A stretch of 11,304 nucleotides of DNA from an uncultured Oscillibacter sp. Its GTDB lineage: Bacteria; Bacillota; Clostridia; Oscillospirales; Oscillospiraceae. Shown piece after piece: positions 1 through 11,304 of the stretch. The stretch is taken from positions 1 to 11,304 of the forward strand of contig CAOJHG010000025.1 in assembly GCA_948435975.1 (NCBI GenBank), written 5' to 3'. A program made the translations under genes and the position numbers. Under the pieces are notes generated by a model. That model did not search any database. It saw nothing but the letters and a program-made list of their open reading frames with translations, and was not told the origin of the DNA. How positions within the stretch are numbered: position 1 is the first letter of the stretch; each line of letters opens with the position of its first letter.

Positions 1-156
1 AGCGAAGTATTCCCGGAAGCCAGGATTCCAGGAGAAGGCTTGCAGCAGGCGGCGGGCGTTCTCCCGGATGCCCTTCTCGTCATAGATATGGAACGGGGTG
101 GGGTACTGGGCGGCGATGGCCTCTAGCTGAGACTGAGTGGCAAAGGGTGTTTTCAT
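1..156 (-). CDS. lysA: Diaminopimelate decarboxylase-like protein, N-terminal 52 residues (truncated by window edge)
   Basis: Reading left from an ATG, the first 52 codons are open and run off the window. The N-terminus contains TPFHIYDEKGIREN followed by AFSWNPGFREYFA. This is the start of the fold-III PLP decarboxylases of the LysA type, where 'TPFxxYDexxIren...' leads into the barrel and 'yfAvKA', with the PLP lysine just outside the window. LysA decarboxylates meso-diaminopimelate to lysine in the cytoplasm. A GAGGT ribosome site lies 7 bases before the ATG, and a strong promoter lies about 45 bases upstream. Only the N-terminus is visible, so a related decarboxylase such as a carboxynorspermidine enzyme cannot be excluded. 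The FSWNxGFREYFA wording is what I associate with clostridial LysA. Confidence 0.75.
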   Translation of the reverse strand, partial: MKTPFATQSQLEAIAAQYPTPFHIYDEKGIRENARRLLQAFSWNPGFREYFA

Positions 157-196
157 GGAAAGGACCTCAAATCTTTTTAGTTTCAGAATGCTTTCT

Positions 197-225
197 ATTT
201 TAGGTGGACCCGCTCATTCTGTCAA
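197..225 (-). promoter_or_regulatory. Promoter of the lysA-like gene
   Basis: On the minus strand a perfect -35 TTGACA (220-225) and -10 TAAAAT (197-202) are separated by exactly 17 bases. Transcription would start near 190, giving a leader of about 35 bases that holds the GAGGT ribosome site. Seen directly by matching to the sigma-A consensus; not tested. Confidence 0.75.
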
Positions 226-250
226 GGCTTTTATGCGCCGCGTTTGGCTC

Positions 251-278
251 TTGCTCAAGAAAAACCTGCTTGTATTCT
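251..278 (+). promoter_or_regulatory. Candidate promoter of the 57-aa protein / TraX / Nudix operon
   Basis: TTGCTC (251-256) and TATTCT (273-278) are spaced by 16 bases on the plus strand, ahead of the first gene of the operon. Both boxes match only partly. A 6-bp dyad (ACCTGC at 264-269, GCAGGT at 285-290) brackets the -10 and could be a regulator site or chance. This is the best candidate in the 167-base gap. Confidence 0.35.
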
Positions 279-323
279 ATTCAGGCAGGTGGAAACAGCT
301 TATTTGAAAGAGGGGGAAGCACG

Positions 324-497
324 GTGGCAAGCAACTGTGAGGAATGCGTCTACGGCGACTATGACAGCGAGCTGGATGCCTTGGTCTGCAATATGGACTT
401 GGATGAGGACGAAATGGAGCGCTTCCTCCGGGGAGACAGCCGGAACTGCCCCTTTTACCGCCGGGGGACCGATTACACCACAGCGGCGAAGCAGTAA
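324..497 (+). CDS. Four-cysteine small protein, DUF6472-like (57 aa)
   Basis: I start this at a GTG because an AGAGGGGG ribosome site sits about 6 bases before it. The same frame stays open upstream to another GTG at 204, but that region is not protein-like and overlaps the lysA promoter. The product is 57 residues, acidic, with cysteines at C5, C8 (CEEC), C22 and C42, and an acidic stretch DLDEDEMERFL followed by NCPFYR. This matches the small clostridial family I know as DUF6472: N-terminal CxxC, 'DEDEM..FL', then 'CPyYR'. Four conserved cysteines suggest a zinc or iron-sulfur knot, but no function is established. It is the first gene of a plus-strand set with TraX 32 bases downstream. The family name is from memory. 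Confidence 0.7.
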   Translation: MASNCEECVYGDYDSELDALVCNMDLDEDEMERFLRGDSRNCPFYRRGTDYTTAAKQ

Positions 498-529
498 CGG
501 CCCCGCATGAGAAAGAGAGAGATTGCGAT

Positions 530-1432
530 ATGACAGCACAGCGGCGCGACGCCCCTCTGACCAGCTTCCACCTGAAATTGATTGCCCTGGTGACGATGGT
601 GATCGACCATGTGGGCTATGTGTTCCTCGGGACGATACCGCTTCTGCGGACCATTGGCAGGGCGGCCTTTCCCATTTACGCCTTTTTGATTGCGGAGGGA
701 TGCCGCCGTACCCGGGACCGGAAGCGCTATCTTTTGGGCTTAGGCGCGTTTGCGGTCATCAGCGAGCTTCCTTTTGATATGGCCTTCGGACCCATCTATC
801 AGGGGACAAGCCTGCCCGAGGTGGATTTCCTGGAGAATACCAACATTTTTTATACCCTCTTTTTCGCCGCAGCCGCCATACATATCTTCGAGACCCTGCG
901 GCGTCAGCCCTGGCCGGTACAGGCCCTGGGCGCGGCTTTCGGCGGGCTCGGGATTTTTCTGGAGGGGCTGGTTGTCGTCATCTCCTACCAGAAGCAGACG
1001 GCGATGGTGCTGGCCTATGTGTGGATTCTGGGCACGCTGTTCTTTTGCTGTAAGTTGCCGGAAGACCCGCCCAAGGGCAGACAGTCCACGCTTCCCATCC
1101 TGGCGTCGGTGCCGGTCCTGCTGATTTTCTTCCAGGCCGAAATCAGTGACTGTGATTACGGCGCGTTCGGCGTTCTGCTGATTGCGGCGCTGTACCTGGC
1201 GGGGACGCCGAAACGGTCCTCTGTGGTGCTGGCAGCGGCGGTGGCGCTCTATTACGGCCCGCTGTATCGTTACGGCTTCCGGCTGGGCTTTCTCGTGATG
1301 GCGCTGCTTTCGGCGGGGCTGACCTTCCTCTACAGCGGGGACCGGGGGCCGAATGTGAAGTGGCCCTTCTACTGGGCTTACCCGGGACATATCGCGGTGC
1401 TGGCGGCACTGCGGCTTTTGCTGAAGTATTGA
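530..1432 (+). CDS. TraX family integral membrane protein
   Basis: A 300-residue polytopic membrane protein with the TraX signature motifs near the N-terminus. These are LKLIALVTMVIDHVG (D26, H27), then R40-x-IGRAAFPIYAFLIAEG to residue 57, then ISELPFD at 77-83, followed by NTNIFYTL before a run of hydrophobic helices. F-plasmid TraX acetylates the N-terminus of pilin. Chromosomal TraX homologues in Firmicutes, as here, have no pilin or conjugation genes nearby and probably acetylate something else at the membrane. The start is the ATG with only a weak purine-rich GAGAGA ribosome site. It follows the 57-aa gene by 32 bases and precedes the Nudix gene by 28, consistent with one transcript. 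Family assignment is firm; substrate is unknown. Confidence 0.85.
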   Translation: MTAQRRDAPLTSFHLKLIALVTMVIDHVGYVFLGTIPLLRTIGRAAFPIYAFLIAEGCRRTRDRKRYLLGLGAFAVISELPFDMAFGPIYQGTSLPEVDFLENTNIFYTLFFAAAAIHIFETLRRQPWPVQALGAAFGGLGIFLEGLVVVISYQKQTAMVLAYVWILGTLFFCCKLPEDPPKGRQSTLPILASVPVLLIFFQAEISDCDYGAFGVLLIAALYLAGTPKRSSVVLAAAVALYYGPLYRYGFRLGFLVMALLSAGLTFLYSGDRGPNVKWPFYWAYPGHIAVLAALRLLLKY

Positions 1433-1460
1433 CGTTTGATTTTTCATATGGAGGAAACGG

Positions 1461-1979
1461 ATGGAATTAGTGGATTTATACAACGAGGACCGCGTCCCTT
1501 TGGGCAGAACAGCGGAACGTATGGCCCCCAAAGGAGTAGGAGAATACCGCATGGTGGTCCATATCTGTGTGTTTGACAGCGAGGGACGGATGCTGATCCA
1601 ACAGCGGTCCATGGAGAAATACAGTCTGCCGGGCATGTGGGACGTGGCGGCGGCAGGGGGCGTGGACGCAGGGGAAACCAGCCGTCAGGGGGCAGAGCGG
1701 GAATTCCTGGAGGAGCTGGGCTTTCCCCTGGACCTGAGCGGCATCCGGCCTTCAGTGACGGTGAACTTCGACGGCGGCTTTGACGATTTTTACATCCTCT
1801 GCCGGGATATCCCCCTGGAGGCTCTGACCCTTCAAAAAGAGGAGGTCAGCGCCGTCCGGTGGGCCGCACTGCCGGAGGTGCTGGACATGGTGGACAGCGG
1901 GACCTTTATCCCCTATCCCAAGAGCTTCCTGAGCTTCCTTTACGAAATGCGGAATCAATTCGGCTTCATCACAAAATGA
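1461..1979 (+). CDS. Nudix hydrolase (Idi/YfcD-like)
   Basis: A 172-residue soluble protein with a complete Nudix box: G66-x5-E72-x7-R80-E81-F82-x-E84-E85-x-G87-F88. The glutamates bind the divalent metal used to cleave a nucleoside-diphosphate-X or similar pyrophosphate. The N-terminus (LVDLYNEDRVPLGRTAER) followed by 'YRMVVHICVFDSEGRMLIQQRS' and 'GMWDVAAAGGV' is the arrangement of the YfcD/isopentenyl-diphosphate-isomerase-like Nudix subgroup. That subgroup is common in clostridia and its physiological substrate is generally unassigned. A GGAGG ribosome site lies 7 bases before the ATG. It is the last gene of the plus-strand set and a hairpin follows its stop directly. I cannot name the substrate from the sequence. 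Confidence 0.9.
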   Translation: MELVDLYNEDRVPLGRTAERMAPKGVGEYRMVVHICVFDSEGRMLIQQRSMEKYSLPGMWDVAAAGGVDAGETSRQGAEREFLEELGFPLDLSGIRPSVTVNFDGGFDDFYILCRDIPLEALTLQKEEVSAVRWAALPEVLDMVDSGTFIPYPKSFLSFLYEMRNQFGFITK

Positions 1980-1984
1980 ATCAA

Positions 1985-2016
1985 AAAGAGGGCGGTGTAT
2001 CAACCGTCCTCTCTTT
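1985..2016. terminator. Bidirectional hairpin terminator between convergent operons
   Basis: A 9-bp stem (1988-1996 pairing with 2003-2011, one G-U pair) with a 6-base loop. It is flanked by AAAAA on the left and TCTTT on the right. On the minus strand the hairpin is followed by TTTTT, a good intrinsic terminator for the acyltransferase operon, whose TGA lies in the loop. On the plus strand the T-tract is shorter but it directly follows the Nudix stop. One element therefore probably ends both transcripts. Confidence 0.75.
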
Positions 2017-3037
2017 GCGTCCTCCGCAGGCGGGCAAAACCGGGGCGGAGGATTTTTTCAATCAGTTGGCGCAGGAGTACCGCCAGCACCAGATTCAGCG
2101 CGTATACGGTCAAGTAGTAGACGATATGCCGCCCGTCCCGGTCAAACCAGGGTGACAGGGCCGCAAATTCCCGGGTGACAATCACATTCAGCAGATAAAT
2201 TTCCAGGCTGTAGGCCCCCAGGAAGCGGAGCGGGCGCCACTCCCAGCCCAGGAGGTCCAGCCCCTTCGCCAGTAGCAGGCAGAAGGGCATGACACAGGCG
2301 GCCACCATGTAACAGGTGGAGATATACAGCTTTCCCTGGAGCCGCAGAACCGCCACCGTAATGCCGCATACAGCTACGGCGGTCCAGGCGGCGGCGTGTT
2401 TGCGGTTCAAGGGCTGGCCCTCCGCCAGATAACAGCCCGCCAGGAGCCCCGCCGCGAATGTGGGTATCCGGTCCAGGAAGTCCGAAAGATAGTTCAGGCC
2501 CACGGGGATGCTCAGCCGGTAAACGCCATAGGCCAGAGGGAAGGTCAGCAGCGTCAGGAAGCCCTTGTACTTCACCCGGCGCAGTATCTTCACCCAGAAC
2601 GGGGCCAGGGCGTAGAACAGCAGCAGGGCGGGAACGTACCAATTGAAGGTCCCAGGGACGCGGAACCAATAGTGGAAGGTGGAAAGGCTCCAAAGGGCGG
2701 TCTTGATCGAAATGCGCCCCTGTACCCGGAGCCACAGACTGTAGAGCCCCACCACCAGCCAGTATGCGGGCAGCACCCGGGCGCACCTGCGGTAAAAATA
2801 GGAGGGAAACCGCTCCTGCCGCCGGACGATGGACCCATACAGCCCCAGGCCGGACAGCAGGAAGAACATGTCTACCCCGCTGAACCCCAGCCACTTGAAG
2901 GCGTTCAGCGCTGGATTGTCAATTTGGAGCTCATAGGCATGGAAGAACATCACCCAAAGCATCGCCAGGCCCATCAGCTCTCCGCGGTAACGGCTGAGGA
3001 GCTGGTAGCCTGCGGCCGTTTCAGTGTGGTTCTTCAT
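2000..3037 (-). CDS. Acyltransferase family 3 membrane protein (OafA/WecH-like)
   Basis: A 345-residue protein that is hydrophobic nearly throughout, with about ten membrane segments. The N-terminal part reads RGELMGLAMLWVMFFHAYE with the expected catalytic-type histidine at H33, followed by GVDMFFLLSGLGLY, the hallmark of acyltransferase family 3. This family moves acyl groups (usually acetyl) onto sugars of cell-surface polymers at the membrane. The usual arginine of 'ELRG' is methionine (M22), a variant I recall in clostridial members. The ATG lies inside the end of the metallopeptidase gene (17-base overlap), so it is probably translated from the same message. The acceptor is unknown; a polysaccharide or wall polymer is the family-based guess. 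Confidence 0.87.
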   Translation of the reverse strand: MKNHTETAAGYQLLSRYRGELMGLAMLWVMFFHAYELQIDNPALNAFKWLGFSGVDMFFLLSGLGLYGSIVRRQERFPSYFYRRCARVLPAYWLVVGLYSLWLRVQGRISIKTALWSLSTFHYWFRVPGTFNWYVPALLLFYALAPFWVKILRRVKYKGFLTLLTFPLAYGVYRLSIPVGLNYLSDFLDRIPTFAAGLLAGCYLAEGQPLNRKHAAAWTAVAVCGITVAVLRLQGKLYISTCYMVAACVMPFCLLLAKGLDLLGWEWRPLRFLGAYSLEIYLLNVIVTREFAALSPWFDRDGRHIVYYLTVYALNLVLAVLLRQLIEKILRPGFARLRRTQREDG

Positions 3038-3425
3038 CGCTGGACGCCTCCTGAGAAAATTCCGTCCGCCACGCTTCCAGCTCTTTCGCGTCCCGGTCGT
3101 CCAGGGCGTGCAGTCCGGCGCGGGCCTCCATATGGTGGGTCAGCTCATGGGACAGCGTGGTATACAGCTCTTTCCGCCAGTCCTCCGCCGTCCACTGCTC
3201 CTGTTTTGCCAGGGCCGCGAAGGAACCATAGTATAAATTCACATACCGGCCCAGCATGTCATTGCAGTATTCCCCCAGTATATATAGCTCTCCCTCGGGG
3301 AATTCTGGGTCTGGCACGGCGTCTTCCAGCAGGTTCACGCCGCCGTTCAGCCCCTCAAAAAGGACTCGGGGAAACGCTTCCGACAGCTCGTCCAGCAAAT
3401 CCCCCGCCTGGTCAAAGCTCAGCAT
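3021..3425 (-). CDS. Minimal HExxH metallopeptidase-like protein (zincin, PF06262-type)
   Basis: A 134-residue cytosolic-looking protein without a signal peptide. Its C-terminal half carries TLSHELTHHMEARAG, an HExxH zinc site (H93, E94, H97). The N-terminal half (NLLEDAVPDPEFPEGELYILGEYCNDMLG...YVNLYYGSF) matches the short 'possible zinc metallo-peptidase' family, where a 'edxPd...lLGlY.G' region precedes 'HExxHhfG'. No substrate is known for the family. Its ATG overlaps the HAD phosphatase stop by 7 bases (ATGCTGA). Its own end overlaps the acyltransferase start by 17, so the three are translationally linked. The tail after the zinc site is acidic (ends SSDEEPH). Activity as a peptidase is inferred only from the motif. 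Confidence 0.8.
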   Translation of the reverse strand: MLSFDQAGDLLDELSEAFPRVLFEGLNGGVNLLEDAVPDPEFPEGELYILGEYCNDMLGRYVNLYYGSFAALAKQEQWTAEDWRKELYTTLSHELTHHMEARAGLHALDDRDAKELEAWRTEFSQEASSDEEPH

Positions 3426-4081
3426 AGCAGCAGCGCCTCCAGTTCCGCCGCGGAGTCCGCCAGATAGTCCGCCCCAGCATCGGTCAGAGACTGGCGGGAG
3501 CGGAATCCCCAGGTCACGCCGCAGGCAGGCAGTCCCGCGTTATGGCCGGTCTGGATGTCAACGCTGCTGTCCCCCACGAAGAGCGTCCGCGCCGGGTCTG
3601 CCTCCAGCTTTTCCAGAATCTGGCGCACGCCGGTGGGGTCCGGCTTCACGGGGATGTCATCCACTTTTCCCTGAACGATGTCGAATACGCCGGGAAAATA
3701 CTGCGTCACGATGGCCCGGCTGAGCGCGTCAGCTTTATTGGAATAGACGGCCATGCGGACCCCGGCGGCTTTCAGATGCTCCAGCAGGGCGGGAATGCCG
3801 GGGTAGGGGGCGGTCTTGTCCATATTATGTGCGCCGTAATAGGCCGTGAACTGCTCCAGCGTTTTTTGGAGGCGTTCCGGGTCCTGGCACTCGGGTGGAG
3901 AGAAGCGGGTCACTAGGTTCGGGATGCCGTGGCCCACCATCGCCATGAAGCTGGACGTGGAGAACTCCGGCCAGCCGTTTTGCCGGCAGACCCAGTTGCC
4001 CGCGCCCGCGAGGTCGTCAATAGTATTCAGAATCGTGCCGTCCAGGTCGAAAAGGACGGTTTGGTAAGCAGGACGGTTCAT
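3419..4081 (-). CDS. HAD-superfamily phosphatase, phosphoglycolate phosphatase-like
   Basis: A 220-residue HAD subfamily IA hydrolase with all four motifs. Motif I is FDLDGT (nucleophile D12, acid D14), motif II is VYSNK (S115), motif III is K146 in VKPDP, and motif IV is GDSSVD (D171, D175). An alpha-helical cap lies between motifs I and II, as in Gph. It would dephosphorylate a small phosphate ester such as 2-phosphoglycolate; the exact substrate is not readable from sequence. I start at this ATG because GAGGT lies 6 bases upstream. The GTG two codons earlier would abut the ribosome site. First gene of a three-gene overlapping operon with its own promoter. Confidence 0.88.
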   Translation of the reverse strand: MNRPAYQTVLFDLDGTILNTIDDLAGAGNWVCRQNGWPEFSTSSFMAMVGHGIPNLVTRFSPPECQDPERLQKTLEQFTAYYGAHNMDKTAPYPGIPALLEHLKAAGVRMAVYSNKADALSRAIVTQYFPGVFDIVQGKVDDIPVKPDPTGVRQILEKLEADPARTLFVGDSSVDIQTGHNAGLPACGVTWGFRSRQSLTDAGADYLADSAAELEALLLC

Positions 4082-6198: not shown

Positions 6199-8064
6199 TT
6201 ACGCCGCAGGGATAACCAGCACCTGGCCGATTTCCAGGGTATCGGCGTTCTTCATGCTGTCCTGGTTGGCCTCGTAGATCACGTTCCACATGGTCCCGGT
6301 GCCATACTGCTTCTTTGCGATGCTCCACAGACAGTCGCCGGATGTAACCACGTAGGTGCTGTACTCATTTGCGAGGTCGGAAGGATTTACGGGCCCCGGT
6401 GTGGGCACAGGAGCGGGAGCAGGCTCCGGCTCAGGGGCGGGTTCGGGTGTAGGCGCGGGCTCCTCGACGGGAGCGGGCGTTTCTGGAGCGGCCGCAGCGA
6501 TACCGATGCGGCTTGCGGGCTTGCCGTAGGCTTCCTCTGTAACGACGCCGTTCAGCTCTTCGGTGATGTAGTCCATCAGCACCTCGTCCATGGGGATACC
6601 CAGGTCATAATTGGCGGTTGCGGCGGCAAAGGCATAGTAGGTATCGCCGCCCGCAGCCATGAAATCATTGGTGGCGATGGAGTACACTGCGTTCTCGTCG
6701 AATTCCTTGCCGCCAACAGTGCTGATGCTTACACGTTTGATGCTGGCGGGCTTGTGATATGTAGAGCCGGGATAGAGGTCGCCTTCGTCAAACTCCGCAG
6801 CGGTGTTCACAGTAAATTCGATGCCGCTGACCTGGGGGAAGCCGCCGACTGCGGTGGGGGTGCAGTAGGTAGAAGCCTCCAGGGCCTCCAGCAGCTCTGC
6901 TCCGGTGACCTTGACGATGCTCAGAGTGTTGCCAAAGGGGAGAACGGTATTAACATCCTTCTTGGTGATGTCGCCCGCAGCGATTTCCGCACGGATGCCG
7001 CCGCCGTTGGTGATAGCTGCATCCACAGCCTCGCCGTTCTTCTCCGCGCCCCAAACCAGAGCGTCAGTAATCAGGTCGCCAAGGTTGGTTTCCTCCGTGC
7101 GGTTGCCGGGGTCTCTCTCGCCGTTCAGCAGTACCTCTGTCTTGGCAAAGACCGTACCATAATCGTCGTCGATTTCCTTCTGAATGGCGGCGGCACGGGC
7201 AGCGATGTCCGCATCCTCGTCCAGGCCCTCAGTCGGAATGCTTTCCACCTTGATGGAGCCGCCGGAAATGGTGATTACGCCGATGTTGGCCAGCTTGGTG
7301 CCGGTGGAAGCGATGACGTGATCGCCGCCAACGGCCTGGACCTCTTCCAACGTGGAGTGAGAGTGGCCGTCGATGAAGATATCAATGCCGGTGACATTCT
7401 CCAGAACGTCAATGGAGCGGTTGCCAGCAGACTCATCGTCAATGCCCAGATGTCCCAGGCACACTACATAGTCACAGCCCGCTTCCTTCAGGTAGTCCAC
7501 TTCCTTTTGCGCAATGGCAAACATGTCCTCGCCTGCGGCAAAGGTCACGCCCTGAATCTTGGCGGGGTGCGCCTTGGTAGCCGTCTCGGGAGTGGCCAGG
7601 CCGAAGACGCCGATCTTTGTGCCGTCGGGGGCCTCAAAGATATGCTCCTCATGCTCCACGCCGGTATTGCTGGCGATAAAGGGGAAGTCCGCCTTCTCAA
7701 CCAGGGCTTGCAGATTGGCATAGCCGTAGTCATACTCATGATTGCCGACGGTGGCAGCGTCATAGCCTGCCATGTTCATCAGCTCCACGGCAGTCTCGCC
7801 CTGGCTGACGCTGACGGTGGGATCGCCCTGAATGAAGTCGCCGGCGTCCAGCAGCAGGACGTAAGCCCCAGTCTCCTGGTAAGCCTTCTTCATTGCAGCT
7901 ACCTTGGAATAGCCTGCAATAGCGCCGTGGACGTCGTTGGTGTGGAGAATCACGATCGTGCCTTCCTGACTCTCGCTCTCCTCCTCGGCGGCGCTGGCGG
8001 TGACGGCCAGGGACAGCATCATCGCAGCCGCCAGCAGCAGGGACAGCAGTTTCTTTTTCCTCAT
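6199..8064 (-). CDS. Secreted 5'-nucleotidase / metallophosphatase with C-terminal LysM
   Basis: A 621-residue extracellular protein. Residues 1-26 are a signal peptide (RKKK, hydrophobic core, ASAA). Residues 35-275 are the calcineurin-like phosphatase domain with the dimetal ligands TNDVH (D44, H46), GD (D76), GNHE (N108, H109), GHLG (H205) and GHSH (H234, H236). Residues 300-520 are the 5'-nucleotidase C-terminal substrate domain (NGGGIR 353-358, FGNT, and NDFMAAGGD near 466). A Pro/Glu/Ala-rich linker (about 527-560) leads to a LysM domain (570-619: YVVTSGDCLWSIAKKQYG...IGQVLVIP) that should bind peptidoglycan. It would release phosphate from extracellular nucleotides or UDP-sugars at the wall. 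The start is the ATG 6 bases after AAAGGAGGT; the frame's upstream extension lacks a signal peptide. It is a single-gene unit. Confidence 0.93.
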   Translation of the reverse strand: MRKKKLLSLLLAAAMMLSLAVTASAAEEESESQEGTIVILHTNDVHGAIAGYSKVAAMKKAYQETGAYVLLLDAGDFIQGDPTVSVSQGETAVELMNMAGYDAATVGNHEYDYGYANLQALVEKADFPFIASNTGVEHEEHIFEAPDGTKIGVFGLATPETATKAHPAKIQGVTFAAGEDMFAIAQKEVDYLKEAGCDYVVCLGHLGIDDESAGNRSIDVLENVTGIDIFIDGHSHSTLEEVQAVGGDHVIASTGTKLANIGVITISGGSIKVESIPTEGLDEDADIAARAAAIQKEIDDDYGTVFAKTEVLLNGERDPGNRTEETNLGDLITDALVWGAEKNGEAVDAAITNGGGIRAEIAAGDITKKDVNTVLPFGNTLSIVKVTGAELLEALEASTYCTPTAVGGFPQVSGIEFTVNTAAEFDEGDLYPGSTYHKPASIKRVSISTVGGKEFDENAVYSIATNDFMAAGGDTYYAFAAATANYDLGIPMDEVLMDYITEELNGVVTEEAYGKPASRIGIAAAAPETPAPVEEPAPTPEPAPEPEPAPAPVPTPGPVNPSDLANEYSTYVVTSGDCLWSIAKKQYGTGTMWNVIYEANQDSMKNADTLEIGQVLVIPAA

Positions 8065-8140
8065 TCCGATACCTCCTTTGTATTCCGGACGGCGGGTTAA
8101 ACAGGATGCCGGTCTGTGGGAACGCCGTCCGCTTGACCCC

Positions 8141-9577: not shown

Positions 9578-10999
9578 ATGAAAGTGATTCATCTAATCAG
9601 CGGCGGCGACTCCGGCGGGGCCAAGACCCATGTACTGAGTCTGCTGCAAAACCTGAACAAGACCATCACCGCCCAACTGGTGTGCTTCCGGGACGGCCCC
9701 TTCGCTCAGGAAGCCCGGGACCTGGGCATCCCCACCATGATTTGCGGCGGCAACAACATCCTCCGCATTCGCCGCCGCCTTACAAAATACATTCAGCAGG
9801 AGGGCTTCCAACTGATCCACTGCCACGGCTCCCGGGCCAACATGATCGGGGCCTTTCTCCGGCGTCCCACCGGCTTGCCGGTCGTCACCACCGTTCACAG
9901 CGACTACCGGCTGGATTACATGGGCCGTCCTCTGGGGAGGCTCACCTATGGCGTGATCAATGCGTGGGCCCTGCGGCAGTTAGATTACCGGATCGGGGTA
10001 TCGGACGCCATGGTAGACCTGCTGATTTCCCGAAATTTTCCCCCAGACCGGTTTTACGCCATCTATAACGGCATTGATTTCACGCCTCCGCCCGCACAGG
10101 GAGACCGGCTGGCATACCTCCGGGGCCTGGGCGCAGACGTGGAGGAAGATTCCGTGGTTGTGGGCATCGCGGCGCGGCTGAATCCGGTCAAGGATATGTC
10201 TACCCTGGTTCGCGGCTTCGCCGAAGGGTATAAAGCGTGTCGAAAATTGCGTTTAGTAATCGCCGGAGACGGAGAAGAACGGGAAAAGCTGGGCAGTCTT
10301 GCCAAGGAGCTGGGCGTAGAAAAGCAGGTTGCTTTCGCCGGGTGGATCAGCGGGGGCATGGACCAGTTTTATTCCGCTCTGGATGTAAACGCCCTCACCA
10401 GCCTGTCGGAGACGTTCCCCTATGCCTTGACCGAAGGGGCGCGGTTCCGCCTGGCGACTGTGGCAACGGCCGTGGGAGGCATTCCCTATCTGATTGACCA
10501 GGGAGTAAATGGCTATCTTTTCCAGCCCGGAGATTGGAAGGTCCTGGGAGAGCGTCTGGCCGCGCTGGGGAACGACGGGGACCTGCGCCGGGAGATGGGA
10601 GAGCGGCTGTACGAAAAGGCGTCCGCCCGGTTCTCTATACAGCGGACAGTGGATACGCAGCTTCATATTTATGAAGAGATTCTGCGCCGGCACAGCCGGC
10701 CTGGGAGCAAGCGGGATGGCGTGGTCATCTGCGGCGCGTATGGACGGGGCAACGCCGGGGACGACGCTATCTTGGAGGCCATATTGCAGGAAATGCGCTC
10801 GGCGGACCCCGACATGCCGGTTACTGTGCTGTCCAAAGCCCCTGAGAGCACCCGCATGGCCTACTGGGTCAACGCGGTCAGCCGGGTGGCGTTCTTCCGC
10901 TGGTTCAGGGCCATGCGGCGGGCGAAGCTGTATATCAACGGCGGCGGAAGTCTCAACGTCATATCCTGTAAGCGGTCCATGAGCCATGCCAACCTATAA
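9578..10999 (+). CDS. GT4 glycosyltransferase fused to the N-terminal part of a CsaB-type pyruvyl transferase, ending at a premature TAA
   Basis: As read, 473 residues. Residues 1-370 are a complete GT-B, family 4 glycosyltransferase: MKVIHLISGGDSGGAKTH nucleotide-sugar loop start, HCHGSRAN (81-88), VGIAARLNPVKD (195-206), IAGDGEE, and the donor-site EX7E (E278, E286) before VGGIPYLI. Residues 381-459 start a polysaccharide pyruvyl transferase: GVVICGAYGRGNAGDDAILEA, TVLSKAPESTRM, AKLYINGGGSL. In CsaB this domain adds ketal pyruvate to secondary cell-wall polymer. After GGGSL come 14 odd residues and TAA, while CsaB sequence resumes in the same frame just beyond. The start ATG follows GGAGA by about 9 bases. 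The GT4 part should be functional; the pyruvyl transferase part cannot be if the stop is real. Confidence 0.85.
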   Translation: MKVIHLISGGDSGGAKTHVLSLLQNLNKTITAQLVCFRDGPFAQEARDLGIPTMICGGNNILRIRRRLTKYIQQEGFQLIHCHGSRANMIGAFLRRPTGLPVVTTVHSDYRLDYMGRPLGRLTYGVINAWALRQLDYRIGVSDAMVDLLISRNFPPDRFYAIYNGIDFTPPPAQGDRLAYLRGLGADVEEDSVVVGIAARLNPVKDMSTLVRGFAEGYKACRKLRLVIAGDGEEREKLGSLAKELGVEKQVAFAGWISGGMDQFYSALDVNALTSLSETFPYALTEGARFRLATVATAVGGIPYLIDQGVNGYLFQPGDWKVLGERLAALGNDGDLRREMGERLYEKASARFSIQRTVDTQLHIYEEILRRHSRPGSKRDGVVICGAYGRGNAGDDAILEAILQEMRSADPDMPVTVLSKAPESTRMAYWVNAVSRVAFFRWFRAMRRAKLYINGGGSLNVISCKRSMSHANL

Positions 11000-11023
11000 A
11001 TCAACGTCGTCGTCAGCCTGATC
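10922..11023 (+). repeat. Degenerate 66-base duplication in the CsaB GGGSL loop
   Basis: Bases 10922-10957 and 10988-11023 align without gaps at an offset of 66 (25 of 36 identical by my count). The first encodes AKLYINGGGSLN, the second ANL-stop-INVVVSLI. Differences fall mostly at third codon positions, apart from a triple GGN-to-GTC change. TCAACGTC also occurs twice (10953-10960 and 11001-11008). The extra 22 codons keep frame but include the TAA at 10997-10999. Confidence 0.55.
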
Positions 11024-11304
11024 AAGGACGTGACCTCCCGGCGGTCTTTGTGGTTCTACCTGATGAATATCCGTGCGGCAAAATGGGCGGGATGCAGGGT
11101 GCAGATGTACGGCTGCGGCATTGGACCCGTTACCCGCGGGAACCACCGGCGTCTCGCGGCGGCCGTGCTGAACCGCAGCGTAGACGTAATCACTCTGCGG
11201 GAGCCGGACTCCCTGGAGGAGCTGCGGGCTATGGGAGTAGACAAGCCGGAAATCCTGCTGACGGCGGACCCGGCTTTGACCCTCCGCCGCGCCGGGGACG
11301 ATGA
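11000..11304 (+). pseudogene. csaB: Remainder of the CsaB-type pyruvyl transferase after the in-frame stop (runs off window)
   Basis: The same frame continues open to the window end and is unmistakably the next part of the pyruvyl transferase. It reads LIKDVTSRRSLWFYL, then IRAAKWAGCRVQMYGCGIGPV, then DVITLREPDSLEELRAMGV and ILLTADPALTL, all typical CsaB blocks in the right order. No ribosome site or suitable start codon lies between the TAA and these motifs (the first ATG, at 11062, is inside the domain), so independent translation is unlikely. Conserved wording after the stop argues that the break is recent or an artefact. The C-terminus lies outside the window. Confidence 0.75.

Follow-up and report, generated by a model that had tools for sequence, protein, structure and literature searches.

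A 66-nucleotide insert with an in-frame stop codon in the GT4–CsaB fusion gene of an uncultured Oscillibacter is probably an assembly artefact

As assembled, the csaB gene of an uncultured Oscillibacter sp. is interrupted by a 66-nt insert that carries an in-frame stop codon. We consider, with a probability of about 0.8, that this insert is a sequencing or assembly artefact in a fragmented MAG and corresponds to no biological feature. This reading is preferred because the insert carries a cluster of unusual bases dominated by two transversions, is bordered by conserved flanks and falls within 350 nt of a contig end in a fragmented MAG. In the living organism, the gene is probably an ordinary intact GT4–CsaB fusion.

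The window, i.e. the whole stretch of DNA analysed, is contig C25 (11,304 nt), from a bin of 376 contigs that totals 2.26 Mb and is 61% complete. A Pfam family was assigned to nine of the 10 frames scanned upstream of the site (table 1). One of them, on the minus strand at 6202–8100 of the window, is a 5'-nucleotidase family protein with metallophosphatase and C-terminal domains, proline-rich linker repeats and LysM. The open part of the fusion gene consists of glycosyltransferase family 4 and group 1 domains, followed by the start of a polysaccharide pyruvyl transferase domain. The PF04230 match in the piece 9578–10999 scores 22.7 bits, slightly below the cut-off of 25.3 bits, and is above the cut-off in the piece 10700–10996. 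Positions 1–69 of the profile are matched upstream of the site and positions 151–280 on another contig, C269; together with the match downstream, the domain is recognised on both sides of the insert. The assembled sequence, which contains the TAA, does not offer CsaB an uninterrupted open frame. The PF04230 scan of this incomplete bin revealed one PS_pyruv_trans gene, in two pieces. There are 42 SLH matches in the same bin as the broken csaB.

Table 1. Features of the window around the csaB site.
Feature	Position	Strand	Remarks
Families before the site			Pfam: TraX, NUDIX, acyltransferase, HAD hydrolase, phosphomethylpyrimidine kinase, CMD, MerR, 5'-nucleotidase with LysM, DUF4330
GT4–CsaB fusion gene, open part up to the TAA	9578..10999	+	473 aa; Pfam PF13439, PF00534, PF04230
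Intact 22 codons ending in YINGGGSL	10889..10954	+	stretch repeated by the insert
66-nt degenerate insert	10955..11020	+	colinear with the preceding 22 codons, absent from relatives; simplest placement
Cluster of nine bases unseen in 30 near relatives	10963..11024	+	eight are G>T or C>A; eight in the insert plus 11024
In-frame TAA	10997..10999	+	column of the conserved Tyr of YINGGGSL in the second copy
csaB resumes normally (IKDVTSRRSLW...), then runs off the contig	11021..11304	+	PF04230 match, profile 76–157

In the csaB frame, YINGGGSL is followed by 14 residues, the TAA and then INVVVSLIKDVTSRRSLW, all in one frame. The insert and the 22 codons just before it are colinear, with identical bases at 38 of 66 positions (30 of the last 45). 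This score was reached in none of 200,000 codon shuffles (maximum 35) and is above the best score (32) of the 488 other in-frame 66-mers of the gene. The same displacement appears in comparisons with relatives. In the blastn alignment with the related locus L002, query positions 10–256 correspond to 7132–7378 and positions 278–600 to 7334–7656; these two pieces share 45 nt of the relative's sequence, with a displacement of 66 nt. The 66-nt shift is repeated in the blast pieces of genomes G031 and G002, and 32 of 36 genomes of the same genus give some match. No repeats of at least 12 nt were found at the insert site. The frame, the shift against L002 and the shuffles bear out the 66-nt offset, the 22-codon repeat and the in-frame TAA noticed in a sequence-only reading of this DNA. 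That reading had placed the stop exactly at the GGGSL loop; it does not lie in the first loop, and falls instead in the second, degenerate copy, at the conserved Tyr.

The insert is absent from the relatives compared. When the two sides of the site were searched apart by tblastn, the gap between them was exactly 0 nt in 81 of 82 related loci, the remaining locus having no match on one side. The comparison with homologues proposed earlier as a check finds the 66 bases missing in these 81 loci. The loop is contiguous in all of the 119 other proteins listed: in 117 according to the pattern and in two, with one changed residue, by eye. The homologues are mostly 741–743 aa long and, among the matches listed, are up to 86% identical to the 473 residues before the stop. 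For the comparison of bases, 52 rows (46 unique) were kept from the 82 loci, and the 30 loci without a single loop-pattern hit were dropped. The pattern requires a contiguous loop, so that the insert is absent from these rows by construction, and the tblastn count is the independent one. A search among 108 loci found the insert in none of 105, the other three being the window itself. Two short weak matches aside, no second copy of the insert was found elsewhere in the bin, and an exact 24-mer search of the set viral_contigs found none. No match to phages was found, and none to viral contigs by protein. No other copy of the same species was found; the best other protein of the 120 listed is 86% identical and the best fragments 80–85%.

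The consensus base of 30 near relatives is present at 47 of the 66 positions of the insert and at 48 of the 66 positions of the intact copy. Eight bases of the insert (five G>T, two C>A and one T>A) are found in none of these relatives, and a ninth unseen base, C>A, stands at 11024, 4 nt downstream of the insert. The intact copy has no unseen base in these columns, and each of the 30 relatives, left out in turn, has 0–2. With all 46 unique rows, which include distant relatives, the insert keeps four unseen bases (three G>T and one T>A) and the intact copy again has none; the C>A at 11024 is also unseen in this larger set. The 1377 nt of the gene upstream contain 27 unseen bases of mixed type, with at most four per 62 nt (maximum from 10825). 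There are three unseen bases in 11025–11304, none in 11025–11164 or 10908–10954, and six in 567 comparable nucleotides of C269. The reference sets consisted of 30 rows for the insert columns and 34 rows for the gene-wide scan; the latter counts eight bases in the cluster, one column being too thin. For this 62-nt stretch, which was picked after the data had been seen, the Poisson probability is about 5e-6 with nine bases and 4e-5 with eight.

The substitution spectrum of the cluster differs from that upstream (Fisher p = 0.006). A base that none of the 46 relatives shows is present in three of the six consensus-G columns preceded by a G and in none of the 12 other consensus-G columns (p = 0.025); another version of this G-context test gave p = 0.0007, and we rely on the p = 0.025 version. 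Of the G>T sites in the insert, five in number, just one is preceded by GG. With the change at 11024, the second residue past GGGSL on the downstream side is K, versus Q in the 117 pattern-matched homologues, as if the altered patch ran into the downstream piece.

The insert and the intact copy differ at 16 positions where the intact copy has a base other than the consensus. At 11 of these, the insert carries the consensus base, about five being expected (p = 0.004), which suggests another CsaB lineage plus errors, and not a worn neighbouring copy, as the source of the insert. In a weaker form of this test, 24 of the insert's 28 differing bases are seen in relatives and 22 are expected, which is not significant (p = 0.11). 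The idea that the second block is a mutated copy of the first fits less well with the consensus bases at the 11 positions. No contig with the presumed second csaB haplotype was found in the bin. Diversity-generating retroelements alter A positions; such an element was rejected by inspection, the changes here being mostly at G and C.

Contig C25 ends 284 nt after the insert (350 nt from the start of the insert). The rest of csaB is found at the terminus of C269, in a 195-aa frame that is intact, open to its end and reads in frame from C25; it matches residues 552–741 of the protein P0002. The ends of C25 and C269 share 9 nt exactly, and no end overlaps of at least 15 nt were found among the 22 contigs examined. 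A break with a 9-nt overlap inside the gene suggests thin read coverage at this place. The 350-nt piece is similar in length to a single merged read pair, which is suggestive only. On C269 (locus L123 of genome G000, 1–3815), the 3' end of csaB is on the minus strand and a frame with SLH-domain matches (2473–2598 and 2794–2925) is on the plus strand, directed toward csaB. Such an end-to-end arrangement of csaB and a putative SLH protein gene would be in keeping with the presumed role of CsaB.

No second scar of the same kind was found in the window and 20 of the 375 further contigs (185,734 bases, with a threshold of at least 40 of 66 for a tandem copy). The scan gave four hits, one of which is the csaB insert itself. 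Another lies in the repetitive linker of the 5'-nucleotidase gene and was discarded as a second scar. The other two, in locus L086 (contig C20 of G000, about 11196–11660), were likewise rejected, being natural 69-nt tandem repeats with a SVTIPEGVTKIGGRAF-like minus-strand translation, which we take to be of the leucine-rich type. As far as the sampled contigs show, the insert is one local event.

We propose that the last piece of C25, from about 10955 to 11304, was joined to the preceding csaB 22 codons too early, and that such a join would show these 22 codons two times over. Some 70 bases at the start of this piece would be poor base calls, probably made on a related csaB haplotype, and these poor calls could have produced both the cluster of G>T and C>A and the TAA. 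It is from the signature of the bases that we infer miscalling as the cause; the insert combines absence from comparable sequences with an error-like signature near a contig end. In the R1 reads of one MiSeq data set, C was wrongly called A in 58% of cases, G was called T in 45% and A was called C in 66% (PMC4381044). Illumina substitution errors are described, in another report, as tending to follow G or GG and rising toward read ends; on HiSeq, according to the same report, wrong calls favour G and error motifs end in GG (PMC4787001). Chimeric contigs can arise from related species together with sequencing errors in one sample, according to a section of a third report (PMC7299287). The match to the known error profiles is loose, because the change from A to C is absent here and HiSeq favours G as the wrong base.

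Several observations weigh against an artefact. Nine odd bases in 62 nt would be a very high density of errors for an assembled consensus, and the insert keeps the reading frame, for which the chance is one in three. The bin has yielded neither a contig of a second haplotype nor, in the bases scanned, another scar. Compared with all 46 relatives, only four bases of the insert, plus 11024, stay unseen; nine of the 27 unseen bases upstream are likewise G>T or C>A; and the strong change from A to C (66%) of the same MiSeq passage is not seen in the insert, which leaves the literature match loose. Of the possibilities offered by the sequence-only reading (a young lesion, a phase site or a chimeric assembly), a chimeric or low-quality assembly is nevertheless the one best supported, by the cluster, the flanks, the contig end and C269, and a phase site finds no support.

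It is unlikely that the insert is a real and recent lesion, i.e. that 66 nt of a related csaB were inserted by ectopic recombination or template switching, from damaged or foreign DNA, so that only the GT4 part would be made. Such an origin would agree with the closer resemblance of the insert to another CsaB lineage than to the neighbouring copy, and the conserved flanks would fit a young event. Loss of csaB could moreover be favoured, for example by phages needing a pyruvylated wall: csaB loss-of-function mutations are selected by phage AP50c in Bacillus anthracis (PMC3545897). Recombination alone, however, does not explain the skew toward G>T and C>A; the site falls in the terminal piece of the contig, with the CsaB part on C269 intact, and the species is represented by this sole assembly among the matches listed, where the next protein and fragments are those given above. 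A particular form of such an event, in which a short patch from the csaB of a related species, bearing clustered G:C to T:A damage, would have been left as an ectopic recombination scar that switches off wall pyruvylation, we judge very improbable. No paper devoted to short-patch illegitimate recombination was among those listed by the literature search.

Even less probable is an old tandem duplication within the gene, in which the strain would have doubled 22 codons of its own, with decay of the inner halves after the death of the gene. The offset, which equals the length of the insert, and the 38 identical positions of 66 are in its favour. Free decay of a dead gene is nevertheless disfavoured because the edges of the cluster are sharp: decay should extend throughout, yet the stretches 10908–10954 and 11025–11164 are free of unseen bases. 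In addition, the csaB frame on C269 stays open throughout, and the insert follows the consensus of the relatives where the neighbouring copy departs from it. The least credible reading is a functional or switchable element, relying on read-through, bypass or a phase-variable duplication that would toggle pyruvylation. The insert is in frame, with a single stop and conserved flanks, as such an element could be; however, it would fall within a conserved loop and is lacking in 81 of 82 related loci, and no repeat of at least 12 nt that could drive switching was found at the site. No second allele was detected at the csaB site, for which one assembly of the species was found.

The case invites caution: what looks like a broken gene in a fragmented MAG can be a short join full of errors, for which the spectrum of bases that relatives do not show provides a simple test. 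Lost pyruvylation matters only if the lesion is real. If it were, an organism with many SLH proteins would have lost wall pyruvylation, and the donor-derived patch would be traceable; a true recombination scar would be a natural record of the uptake of an oxidised DNA fragment in a gut anaerobe.

Truncation of csaB is also known from phage-selected mutants of Bacillus anthracis, in which resequencing revealed single-base changes or a 5-bp insertion (PMC3545897); the present case, in contrast, is seen in one assembly of a distant relative. In its position near a contig end of a fragmented MAG, the insert resembles the chimeric contigs and error-derived joins of short-read metagenomes (PMC7299287), although an insert of this make-up was not found described in the parts of the literature searched. 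The closest counterparts of the gene are the Oscillospiraceae GT4–CsaB fusions of about 741 aa, which have the same domain order, the YINGGGSL motif and the downstream IxDVTSRRSLW; in the assembled gene, by contrast, GGGSL is followed by 22 additional codons, one of them a stop, and K replaces Q.
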